The position numbers were made by a program, and so were the translations under genes. A stretch of DNA of 64,000 bases from NCBI RefSeq assembly GCF_037201815.1, contig NZ_CP147407.1, positions 2,860,723 through 2,924,722 on the forward strand, read 5' to 3'. The notes under the pieces were generated by a model. It worked only from the letters and a program-made list of their open reading frames with translations, did not search any database and was not told the DNA's origin. This DNA is from Metabacillus sp. FJAT-52054 (lineage in GTDB: Bacteria > Bacillota > Bacilli > Bacillales > Bacillaceae). This document shows, piece after piece, positions 42,963 to 47,304 of this stretch. Position 1 is the stretch's first letter, and each line of letters begins with the position of its first letter.

Positions 42963-43140
42963 TATAAGCACCTCACTGTCATAGTCTGTCTCACTAAAAC
43001 TATATCATAATGACTGGGTATGAGCTCCCCATACACCTTTCTATAGCACATTTTAGCGGCATGTAAACCATGAAGTGAAAGGAATTTGGCGTATTCGTGA
43101 AGCCAACATTATCCACAGCAGGGATGCGCAAACGAACCTG

Positions 43141-44259
43141 TTATCTCCCTAAAAACGATTCCGGGGCACTATATGGAAACTGCCCCTCTTCCGCCACCGT
43201 TCTATACGTCACGAAGCCCCCGCACGTATTCAGTCCATTTTTCAGGGCATCATCATCATTCAGGGCTTTTTTAAATCCTTTATTCGCAATTTGAAGGGCA
43301 TAAGGAAAGGTTACATTTGTGAGGGCCAAGGCAGAGGTTCTCGGAACAGCGCCAGGCATATTGGCTACCGCATAGTGAAGGATGCCATGTTTTTCATAAA
43401 CAGGATTTTCATGGGTCGATACGCGGTCTGCCGTTTCAAAAATTCCTCCTTGATCAATCGCAATATCTACAATGACAGACCCCTGCTCCATCCCCTTTAC
43501 CGTCGTCTCAGACACGAGTTTTGGCGCTTTGGCTCCAGGAATCAGAACCGCCCCGATCGCGAGATCCGCCCACACAACCGATTCATGAATATGATACGGA
43601 TCAGACATCAGTGTCATCACTCGTTCACCAAACACATTCTCAAGCTGCCGGAGTCTGCCGGCACTTACATCCAATATACGCACCTCTGCGCCAAGACCTG
43701 CAGCAATTTTAGCCGCATTGGCTCCCGCTGTCCCTCCGCCGATAATTGTCACCTTTCCGCGGTAAACCCCCGGTACACCTGCCAGAAGAATCCCCTTGCC
43801 GCCCTTATGCTTCTCCAAAAACTCTGCTCCGATTTGAGCAGCCATTCTTCCCGCAACCTCACTCATCGGTGTAAGGAGAGGCAGCGAACCATCTCGCAGC
43901 TGGACGGTTTCATAAGCGATGGCAGTCACCTTTTTCTCTAATAGTGCCCTGGTTAATTCAGGCTCCGCAGCCAGATGAAGAAAGGTAAACAGGATCAGCC
44001 CCTCTCTGAAATAGGAATATTCAGAAGCTACCGGTTCTTTTACCTTCATCACCATTTCCGCGCTCCAGACATTTTCTGGGTCTTGTATGATTGCCGCCCC
44101 AGCATCTGCGTACTGCTGATCTGAAAAACCGGCACCAGTCCCTGCACCTGTCTCAACGATGACTTCATGGCCAGCCTTAACCAGCCCGTAAGCACCAGCA
44201 GGAGTCAGCGCCACTCTGTTTTCATTATTTTTTATTTCTTTCGGAATTCCGATTTTCAT
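43141..44259 (-). CDS. ald: Alanine dehydrogenase
   Basis: NAD-dependent interconversion of alanine and pyruvate; in Bacillus needed for growth on alanine and for sporulation. 372 residues. The opening [20 protein letters not shown], the substrate residues in [13 protein letters not shown], the catalytic His in [12 protein letters not shown], and the nucleotide site [24 protein letters not shown] are all present. Ribosome site AGGAGGTG. The upstream region is a tandem repeat block, one unit of which may supply the -35 box. Confidence 0.97.
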
Positions 44260-44303
44260 GGTGTGTCACCTCCTGATATAGCGATTGTGAAAGTCATATT
44301 GAT

Positions 44304-44331
44304 AGTATAAGGACTTGGCTTTGTCTGACAA
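44304..44331 (-). promoter_or_regulatory. Candidate ald promoter built on a repeat unit
   Basis: TTGTCA (44326-44331), a 16-base spacer and TATACT (44304-44309) on the minus strand. The -35 box lies inside the palindrome TTTGTCTGACAAA (44320-44332), which recurs in the flanks of the tandem repeat block. Confidence 0.55.
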
Positions 44332-44825
44332 ACGATAGGATGGCCGCTTTGTCTGACGATTTTGTCTGACAAACGATGAATCAGCCAAACTCGTTTTTCC
44401 AGCCGTTCCTTCTCGTTTTCCAGCCGGACTTACTTGCTTTCCGGCCACTTCACCTGTGATTCCAGCCGATTCCGCCACCTTTCCAGCCAAACTCGTTTTT
44501 CCAGCCGTTCCTTCTCGTTTCCCCGCCGAACTTGCTTACTTTCCGGCCACTTCCCCCGTAATTCCAGCCGATTCCGCCACCTTTCCAGCCAAACTCGTTT
44601 TTCCAGCCGTTCCTTCTCGTTTCCCCGCCGAACTTGCTTACTTTCCGGCCACTTTAGCCGTGATTCCAGCCACTTCAGCCGTGATTCCAGCCACTTCAGC
44701 CGTGATTCCATCCAATTCCAGAGCCTTTCCAGCCAAACTCTTTTGGTCTGGACAAACGACAGAATGACCGCTTTGTCTGACGATTTTGCCTGACAAACTA
44801 TGGACTGGCCGCTTTGTCTGACAAA
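44320..44825. repeat. Tandem repeat block, 102-bp and 21-bp units with palindromic flanks
   Basis: CAGCCAAACTC recurs at 44382, 44484, 44586 and 44730: two full 102-bp units, then a third of 144 bp because it gained 21-bp repeats (44650-44670, 44671-44691, 44692-44712). Both flanks carry TTTGTCTGACAAA palindromes (44320-44332, 44361-44373, 44813-44825) and related partial copies. All periods are multiples of three, so frames stay open on both strands, but no ribosome site and conserved protein were seen; I treat it as non-coding. Confidence 0.85.
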
Positions 44826-45008
44826 TCGGATCTATGACAAATCCCCGTTCCTCTACAATTACCCTGCTGCTAAAGCTTCCCCTGTCCTGATCGTTGCTTT
44901 AAATTTCTTCTTCATATATTTTCTGCTCAAATCACTTGGTCTTTCTCCATCATATGAATGTCTATCATCATTGGAAAAGCTGCTTGCAAAAAAGGGCGGA
45001 ATAACGAG
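44826..45008. other. Gap after the repeat block
   Basis: A plus-strand frame (44800-45072) runs here with a hydrophobic stretch, but it starts in the repeat flank, has no ribosome site and runs through the SDR terminator, so I do not call it a gene. Confidence 0.5.
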
Positions 45009-45047
45009 AAAAGAACGGACTCTCATCTTTTATGAGTCCGTTCTTTT
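45009..45047. terminator. Terminator after the SDR gene
   Basis: A 14-bp stem (45009-45022 with 45034-45047), with A/U ends on both sides. Confidence 0.88.
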
Positions 45048-45049
45048 CG

Positions 45050-45814
45050 CTAGTTTCCTGATTTTCGTCTAAGTACATCTGCTCCGCCATTTGCATCGAT
45101 AATGGCGCCTGTGATGAAGTCCGATTGGTCGTCGCACAGGAACGTGATAATGCGGGCAATGTCTTCGCCTGTCCCGGACCGTCCGATTGGGGTATTTGGG
45201 TCATGCTGGCTGCGGGCGGAATCAATTGTGGCTTCTTTCATGTCTCCCATAATATTTCCCGGGCAAATCATGTTAGCGGTGATCCCGTTTTCGGCTTCTT
45301 CGTATGCGATGGATTTCGTTAGGGAAGCAAGACCTGCTTTTGAGGCGCTGAAGGCGGACCTATGCAGCCATCCGGGCGCGCTTGCTGCGTCCTGAAATCC
45401 ATATGTAATGAGGCGGCCGAATTTCTGTTCCCTCATAATGGGCACTGTTTTTCTGAAAAGGTGAAATACGGAACTTAAATTTCCTTCGATCATGCTGTAC
45501 CATTCATCATCTGAGTAATCGGCCAGTTTTTTTCGTTCGAATATATAAGGCCCGGCGTTGTTGATGAGGCAGTCGATTCTTCCATAGGCTTGCATCGTCT
45601 TATCGATAATGGCATCCAAATCGCTTTTTTTGGTTACATCTCCTTGAAGAAGAAGCAGCCTCCCGGATAGATGCTGAAACTCATTTTTTAATGCTTCTGC
45701 TGCTTCCCGATCGCTTCGGAAAGTGGCGGTAACCGAGTACCCCTTTTGAAGAAAAGCTTCAGTTACTTTTTTTCCGAGTCCCTTTGTTCCGGCGGTAATG
45801 ATGGCGTGCTTCAT
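45050..45814 (-). CDS. ytkK: Short-chain dehydrogenase-like protein without the catalytic Tyr (YtkK type)
   Basis: 254 residues with the SDR Rossmann motif TAGTKGLGKKV, NNAG (INNAGPY) and the C-terminal GAIIDANGGADV. The catalytic YxxxK site is replaced by FSASK (HRSAFSASKAGL), so the proton-donating Tyr is missing while Lys is kept. My memory of B. subtilis YtkK has a similar AF..AK site, which suggests a conserved non-standard member rather than decay. Substrate unknown; usually annotated FabG-like. Confidence 0.85.
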   Translation of the reverse strand: MKHAIITAGTKGLGKKVTEAFLQKGYSVTATFRSDREAAEALKNEFQHLSGRLLLLQGDVTKKSDLDAIIDKTMQAYGRIDCLINNAGPYIFERKKLADYSDDEWYSMIEGNLSSVFHLFRKTVPIMREQKFGRLITYGFQDAASAPGWLHRSAFSASKAGLASLTKSIAYEEAENGITANMICPGNIMGDMKEATIDSARSQHDPNTPIGRSGTGEDIARIITFLCDDQSDFITGAIIDANGGADVLRRKSGN

Positions 45815-45990
45815 CGTCTAAGCTCCTTTCGAGCTGTGGTTTATATAAGGAATATATTGTATCCTTTTTGCATTGCTGTAATAATAAGGTGAACCTTTTA
45901 GCAAAAGCTGCCGATGCGTTTTATGTCCGCTCCCAGCTCTTCTTTAAATTTCATAAACGGTTCTAAAACATCTGGAGGCAGGTTACTGGG

Positions 45991-47304
45991 ATGATTCCAA
46001 TTGATAAAAAGCCTCTGTACGGCCTTGAGCGCTTCGGACTTGAAGCGGTGCCCGCAGAGCTTAGAAAAACGGGTTGGATTGAGTATTTCATTATCCAATT
46101 TGCTTTTTCATTTAATGCCGGCAATGTTCTGCTGCCGGCTTTGGCTGTTATGGAAGGCGGGCTGAGTTTCAGCCAGGCATTCTTCAGCTGTATCGCAGGT
46201 GCCTTTTTAGCCTTTCTGCTTGTATCTTTTCTGTCATTGCCGGGTTCTGTCAGCGGTCTGCCTGCTCAGTATGCGATCCGGAGTATTCTCGGGAGCCGCC
46301 TTGGGCAATACGCCGCATCTCCCGTTCGTTCTTTAATCTCGCTCTACTGGTTTTCCGTTCAAACAATCGGCGGAACGTGGATGCTGATTGAAAGCTTGAA
46401 AAGATTTGGTGTTCAGAGCCTTTCTTTTCCTTTGGCTGCTGCTGGACTTGGAGCCATAATGATTGGAATTACAATTGTAGGTTTTCATGCTGTGAAAAAG
46501 GCCACTGCCTATTTCCTTCCTTTTTTACTCGCAGGAGAAGGAATCATTATCTATTTATACTTTACTACAAATACGAGGGTAACTGCATCTGTAAGTACTC
46601 AGAGTGCAGATAGTGCGGGAAGTTTGACGATGCTGCTGTTTGCGAGTCTTGTTTTTGTCCAGTATGTAGCCGGTGTAAGTGCTTCTGCCGATATGACCAG
46701 GTATGCCAGATCGCCACTTCACGGATTTTGGGGAATGTTTGCGGGTAACTTTATCGGGTTTTCAATGACAGCTTTTTTAGGTATCTTCAGTGCTTCTTAT
46801 TTTGCTGAAATGAATCCATTTTTATCAGCATCAAGGCTTACAGAATCATCCTTGCTTTTCTCTATTATTCTGGCTGCGTCGATCCTTTCTCTCATTTCAA
46901 TCAATTTAAGCAATGCATACACGGGAAGCTTCAGCCTGCTGAATATATTCCCTTCCCTTGGAAGAATTAAAAGTGCGGTCTTATTCGGAACAGCCGGCAT
47001 TATCCTTAGTACGATGCCTGCAGTAGTTACCGAGGCAAAAAGCTGGATTTCGATCCTCGGCAGTTTATCCATTCCGTTATCTGCTGTCATCGTATCCGAT
47101 TTTCTAATGGTGAAAAAAGGAACGATATCTGATAAAGATCTTTTACAAATGGGGAGTGTTAACAGGCAGGCTGTGTTTTCTATGGCGGCAGGAATTCTTA
47201 TTTACTGGCTGGTCCCTTCAGGCACTGGTCCGGGTTTTATCAGTTTTATAGCAACATGTGTACTTTATATCTTAATCATTCGAAAAAAAGCTGGCACCGA
47301 TTGA
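45991..47304 (+). CDS. NCS1 family permease (cytosine/purine type)
   Basis: 437 residues with about twelve membrane helices. The opening YGLERFGLEAVPAELRKTGWIEYFIIQFAFSFNAGNVLLPAL resembles the NCS1 nucleobase:cation symporters (CodB group), and SASADMTRYARSPLHGF matches the conserved substrate-site region of helix 6. GGAGG lies 11 bases before the ATG. Substrate cannot be fixed: cytosine, purines, hydantoin or a vitamin precursor are possible. No catabolic gene is adjacent. Confidence 0.8.
   Translation: MIPIDKKPLYGLERFGLEAVPAELRKTGWIEYFIIQFAFSFNAGNVLLPALAVMEGGLSFSQAFFSCIAGAFLAFLLVSFLSLPGSVSGLPAQYAIRSILGSRLGQYAASPVRSLISLYWFSVQTIGGTWMLIESLKRFGVQSLSFPLAAAGLGAIMIGITIVGFHAVKKATAYFLPFLLAGEGIIIYLYFTTNTRVTASVSTQSADSAGSLTMLLFASLVFVQYVAGVSASADMTRYARSPLHGFWGMFAGNFIGFSMTAFLGIFSASYFAEMNPFLSASRLTESSLLFSIILAASILSLISINLSNAYTGSFSLLNIFPSLGRIKSAVLFGTAGIILSTMPAVVTEAKSWISILGSLSIPLSAVIVSDFLMVKKGTISDKDLLQMGSVNRQAVFSMAAGILIYWLVPSGTGPGFISFIATCVLYILIIRKKAGTD

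Follow-up and report, generated by a model that had tools for sequence, protein, structure and literature searches.

Replication-oriented tandem arrays with a 102-bp plan in Metabacillus, possibly read as directional DNA sites

What kind of element is the tandem repeat that stands upstream of ald in Metabacillus sp. FJAT-52054, and does it belong to that gene or to the chromosome? We analysed it in a window of 64,000 nucleotides (the whole stretch; contig NZ_CP147407.1, positions 2,860,723 to 2,924,722) and compared its own genome (G000) with that of a sister species (G001), with further genomes of the same genus (G005, G002 and G003) and with three genomes of another genus (G050, G053 and G055).

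The array beside ald and its surroundings

An earlier note had described nested 102-bp and 21-bp tandem repeats at this place, and TRF recovered both periods, the first over 44382-44671 (2.8 copies, 93% matches) and the second as a run of 21-mers on the plus strand at 44643..44718 (3.6 copies). Together with the series of steps from core to core, this defined an array at 44382..44741, its C-rich strand being the plus strand, made of 102-bp units (18+21+21+21+21) that carry TTCC[A/G]GCC cores and ending in extra 21-mers; we call this array and its relatives family A. The 102-bp copies agree at 94/102 positions (1 vs 2), 91/102 (2 vs 3) and 87/102 (1 vs 3), and the near-identity of copies 2 and 3 noticed earlier was confirmed, as their first 69 bases are the same with no mismatch. 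The word TTYCAGCC, picked post hoc from this very array, has 22 sites in the window where 7.65 are expected (0/100 shuffles as high), and 11 of the 22 fall within the array.

An assembly artefact is unlikely, considering that the independently assembled Bacillus sp. SJS has a counterpart 91% identical to query bases 1-312 of the array, situated at a contig end. The step series at the end of the ald array counts two 21-bp steps more than the SJS copy, which, with length differences of exactly 102 or 204 bp between the strains at three other loci (see below), agrees with the recent expansion that had been proposed. The repeat had also been said to leave both strands open. This held for two plus-strand frames, free of stops over the whole of 44382-44735, but not for the third plus-strand frame (6 stops) or for any minus-strand frame (1, 4 and 2 stops).

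Blocks of a second family, B, with core TTTGTCTGAC and a period of 41 bp (13+28), stand on either side of the array, so that the remark that all periods are multiples of three stands for 102 and 21 but not for the immediate surroundings. One B block lies on the ald side (44320..44381, plus strand; G000:C1:2905042-2905103) and the other, partly degenerate, on the far side (44742..44826, plus strand; G000:C1:2905464-2905548). At the same place G001 has the 41-bp block with the 102-bp array missing, while G005 and G002 have neither; therefore, the family A array appears, from this comparison, to be nested in an older 41-bp array.

The flanking gene ald, which we take to encode alanine dehydrogenase following the earlier note, is an ORF on the minus strand (43141..44259) with an orthologue 92% identical in G001. 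A consensus scan placed the best predicted promoter of ald, a prediction and not a proof of function, at 44304..44331 on the minus strand (TTGTCA-16-TATACT, 10/12). Its first hexamer, TTGTCA, belongs to the B block, where TTGTCAGAC recurs on the reverse strand of the 41-bp repeat; family B arrays may be a source of -35-like hexamers. Past the array, the next gene is a minus-strand ORF (45050..45814), presumably an SDR-type dehydrogenase, and the same neighbour of ald is found in G001, G005 and G002. The inverted repeat between array and next gene (45003..45055), judged by eye, is likely a terminator hairpin; it is absent from the predictions of the terminator scan. Rfam over 43000-46000 gave only two sub-threshold matches, from one miRNA family and both on this hairpin, and a known RNA family was rejected. 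A phage or plasmid origin was also rejected, as neither collection gave a match at "distant" sensitivity. By prediction only, the ald array lies outside both neighbouring transcripts.

A dispersed family with a common plan

Searching for the unit elsewhere, as had been proposed, showed that the ald array is a member of a dispersed family, a membership that the first reading had missed along with the 18+4x21 plan, the locus-specific spacers and the polarity by replichore. Blastn gave 21 matches in the own genome and a sequence-only profile of the unit gave 56; the listed matches, from which the weakest profile matches were left off, make at least 15 loci, all of them on the chromosome contig, and all locus counts below refer to listed matches. 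By crude codon-scored gene calls, the family A arrays are intergenic.

The anatomy of the arrays is firm. Each 102-bp unit has one 18-bp and four 21-bp steps, and each step starts with a core of about 8 bp, mostly TTCC[A/G]GCC; outside the cores, the sequence is specific to the locus, where all units resemble one another. Among the 26 loci with at least 4 cores in three species (G000, G001 and G005), 456 of the 470 steps were 21 or 18 bp long (360x21 and 96x18, against 10x20 and 4 others). Exactly four 21-type steps lay in 66/72 of the intervals separating successive 18-type steps (17-19 bp), and the distance between 18-bp steps was exactly 102 bp in 59/71; the departures were single 101s, units one 21-mer short or long, and two degraded arrays of G001. 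Over 64 complete units, those of one locus were 0.79-0.96 identical, and those of different loci averaged 0.60. Four orthologous pairs of G000 and G005 score 0.58-0.70. The spacers are thus near saturation; in well-preserved loci 102 bp is nevertheless still the usual unit.

The core drifts as well. Its base 5 is mainly A or G in the own genome (158 A and 58 G of 225) and mainly T, C or G in G005 (224/237), and in a fourth species, G003, the core is TNCGTGCC, with a 38-core array that keeps the 18+4x21 plan throughout. Even the own genome has two arrays that repeat every 102 bp on a different core, TTTAGCCG at 885k and TTCTGGCCG at 2838k. The first of these (G000:C1:885110-885871, 7.4 copies) adjoins a TTCCAGCC array, and G001 has only a few such units there. 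In G050, G053 and G055 the arrays have 21-bp steps and no clear 102-bp plan.

Two further places in the own genome deserve mention. Between metK and pckA, a third small family (GGTCGATATA..., ~20-bp steps, four copies, same polarity) lies between two A arrays (G000:C1:3089977-3090037). The B array at G000:C1:3561796-3562076 has the A-like cores TTCCGGCCG and TTCCACCCG in its spacers, as if the two families had been mixed there.

We also looked at how far the family extends. In the genus, listed family A matches were found in 5/6 genomes, G002 giving no match to family A or B, and across the bacterial family 12/80 genomes matched at E up to 0.001. These 12 include four genomes of genus g2 with one match each (E 3e-4 to 1e-3), which may be chance. 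Several arrays are common to species. G000, G001 and G005 all have those beside a fosB-like gene, an ABC transporter and a DsbA-like gene; G000 shares with G005 the one in a DinB-like/acetyltransferase gap, and with G001 those at metK-pckA, a branched-chain transporter and the 804k site (names that we assumed from the sequences of the flanking genes). Others, the ald array included, are absent from a sister species. G001 has near-empty sites at 211k (9 bp against 274 bp in G000) and 3289k (5 against 119 bp), and at 3184k it has 76 bp, about three units, against 645 bp.

The comparison with SJS rests on the 8/14 loci alignable over both flanks, in a draft whose copy numbers may be collapsed. 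At three of these 8 loci the gap was exactly 102 or 204 bp, SJS being 204 bp shorter at 3184k (with 1 substitution in 387 aligned bases), 102 bp shorter at dinB and 102 bp longer at fosB; 1452k had 311 bp more and metK 255 bp less, while three loci were little changed. Between the two strains, core sites differed less (37/1080, base 5 of the core accounting for 12 of the 37) than spacer sites (80/1366), counts that possible misalignment at loci with copy-number change may affect.

Orientation by replichore

With dnaA set to the plus strand, the C-rich strand of the listed family A loci is minus in the first replichore and plus in the second. In nearly all listed arrays, the strand synthesized as the leading one reads GGC[T/C]GGAA, whether the neighbouring genes are tandem, convergent or divergent. 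This holds for 15/15 loci in G000, 6/7 in G001, 7/7 in G005, 2/2 in G050, 5/7 in G053 and 8/8 in G055, that is, for 43/46 listed loci in six genomes and two genera, and for 39/41 when five loci of E >0.001 (three of G055 and two of G053) are removed. For these counts, dnaA stands at the contig start in G000, G001 and G050 and at 330.9 kb in G005; G053 and G055 have it on the minus strand. The terminus of G000 was placed between 2.03 and 2.05 Mb, where both GC skew and gene direction reverse, and was assumed opposite the origin elsewhere. Equal chances for the two directions give 43/46 a probability of 2e-10, and a bias of 65%, that of permuted words outside arrays (1744:943), gives it 7e-6, both values being too small because orthologues are not independent. 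Family B behaves alike, with 8/8 listed loci in G000 and 7/7 in G001 (of which one is weak and another lies just 34 kb beyond the midpoint), the strand of its nearly palindromic core being taken from the better-scoring match. Around the terminus of G000, from ~1.45 to 2.43 Mb, there are no listed family A loci and three of family B.

Polarity tracks replication and not transcription, because all 10 of the A or B loci of G000 in convergent or divergent gaps are polar (crude codon-scored gene calls, ignoring a low-scoring 75-codon ORF beside the 804k array), and the polar B locus at 2090852 runs against both its neighbouring genes.

Three listed A loci point the wrong way, 1241545 in G001 and 2957009 and 2958742 in G053, so that the wrong direction is tolerated. 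At the first of them the own genome retains two units in the same direction. The flank of 2958742 recurs inverted beside the right-way locus 3831210, with a 101-codon gene near each, which suggests a duplication or rearrangement.

A genome-wide polar single word found no support. Outside arrays, TTCC.GCC counted 22 vs 17 by strand in 220,545 bases, against 1744:943 for the permuted words; exact TTCCAGCC, at 6 vs 2, is too rare to judge.

Possible readings and known systems

The near-uniform direction of the arrays relative to replication hints at a cellular component that would take them as directional signals. We favour, at a probability of roughly 0.4, the reading in which the arrays are helically phased, replication-polar DNA sites that evolve as STAR elements do and are kept through a putative directional reader. 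As 21 bp is about two helical turns, successive cores would mostly lie on the same face. The cores would be sites for a DNA-level reader acting with or behind the replication fork, and selection through this reader would hold core, spacing and polarity and let the spacers drift. Slippage or unequal recombination would add or remove whole 102-bp units, giving the likeness within each locus. Plan and orientation are observed, whereas the reader, selection on polarity and a function are what we infer, and several observations count against them: the 18-bp step falls out of helical phase, G002 is without a match, many arrays were gained or lost between species, and the core is not clearly polar outside arrays. 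Moreover, a single strict reader fails to explain the two own-genome arrays with other cores, and such a multiplicity of cores in one genome, with the three wrong-way loci, speaks against it. A broader form of this idea, more tentative still, would be a Bacillaceae class of polar phased arrays in which the 18+4x21 plan and the likeness of cores within an array are kept, the core drifts between arrays and species, and the reader travels with the fork or behind it.

The main competitor of DNA-level reading, and a serious one, is a satellite, non-functional or selfish, seeded one-way at forks. Seeding by a single-strand process on one template strand would give polarity, slippage would resize the arrays, and core and spacing would only reflect what the machinery of seeding or slippage needs. 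The near-empty sites and the turnover of arrays between sister species, strain differences of exactly 102 or 204 bp, the persistence of wrong-way arrays and the lack of polarity of the single motif are all as this account expects. Against it, cores and step lengths have been kept over several species while the spacers went near saturation, some arrays stay at the same site in three species, and a non-systematic look noticed no transposase or target duplication.

An element acting as RNA is an unlikely alternative, either as a C-strand Rho-dependent terminator for head-on transcription or as a G-strand structured leader or sRNA. In its favour, most arrays have about twice as much C as G on one strand, the C-rich RNA at ald is less structured than its shuffles (z +2.5; 99/100 shuffles fold at least as well), and in 10/10 arrays tested in G000 the G-strand RNA folds more stably than its column-permuted controls (z -3.0 to -4.9). 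But the G-strand effect passes z -2 in just 2/7 arrays of G005, so RNA structure was rejected as a conserved trait, the C-strand z scatters from -3.7 to +2.9 across arrays, and in one array C and G are almost balanced. Such an element would also leave the 21-bp steps unexplained, and orientation follows replication, not the neighbouring genes.

Translations of such repeats recur as hypothetical proteins in Bacillaceae annotations. A repeat protein of 6+7+7+7+7 residues per unit would fit the divisibility of 18, 21 and 102 by three, the frames open over whole arrays (the best C-strand frame, +2, is stop-free in 16/22 loci) and the halved stops of C-strand frame +1 (0.20 vs 0.40 per unit); we nonetheless rejected it as very improbable, since stops occur in each frame across the 22 loci (26, 17, 17, 52, 86 and 82 in the six frames), for the most part about as often as column composition predicts, small changes in length are usually non-triplet, five array ORFs gave nothing above the Pfam cut-off, and the bracketing family B has its 41-bp period. 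This agrees with the earlier note, which had seen no real protein at ald. Multiple-of-three periods do not come from coding, because small length changes are mostly of a single base (10 of the 470 steps are 20 bp) and each frame has stops across loci.

A DNA-level array with cores every two turns and directional reading tied to the fork, or to something that follows it, is the least strained account. If true, replication-polar arrays would be a directional chromosome mark not described before; if polarity instead stems from seeding, the arrays record strand-biased insertion at forks. A literature search by title and start of abstract, with most subscription papers outside its scope, found no description of them. 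Intergenic repeats such as STAR are still given as having no known function (PMC3532100); the present arrays offer an explicit handle, as their spacing plan is fixed, their core drifts and the fork, not the genes, sets their orientation.

Among known systems, KOPS and SRS, read by FtsK and SpoIIIE, and Chi are short, non-palindromic words, G-rich on the leading strand and oriented from origin to terminus. The arrays share this richness and this orientation; the difference is that those are dispersed single words, whereas here polarity sits in arrays and the lone core is not clearly polar. Set beside CRISPR, in which identical repeats with unrelated spacers adjoin cas genes, only ~8 bp are common between steps here and the "spacers" recur every 102 bp. 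The TAACTGA direct repeats of Beggiatoaceae and Cyanobacteria are likewise dispersed intergenic tandem arrays of a short word, with a 7-bp period and no higher-order unit in the description that we drew on (PMC4679880). In its Microcystis sample, those between stop codons have a single chromosomal orientation throughout, while in Maribeggiatoa the repeats are tied mainly to start codons (PMC4679880).

Closest in behaviour, not in sequence or plan, are the STAR elements of Staphylococcus, direct repeats between genes that share a short core and have locus-private spacers, alike within each locus, and a copy number that varies between strains (PMC3532100). Our arrays are intergenic as well, with locus-specific spacers, and their repeat number varies too, as in the comparison with SJS. 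The STAR core, however, is 14 bp long, T(G/A/T)TGTTG(G/T)GGCCC(C/A), at a spacing of at least 40 bp, unlike TTCC[A/G]GCC and its relatives, and STAR elements have no 18+4x21 plan. The word "orientation" is absent from the main text of the STAR paper, so that polarity is not described there (PMC3532100).
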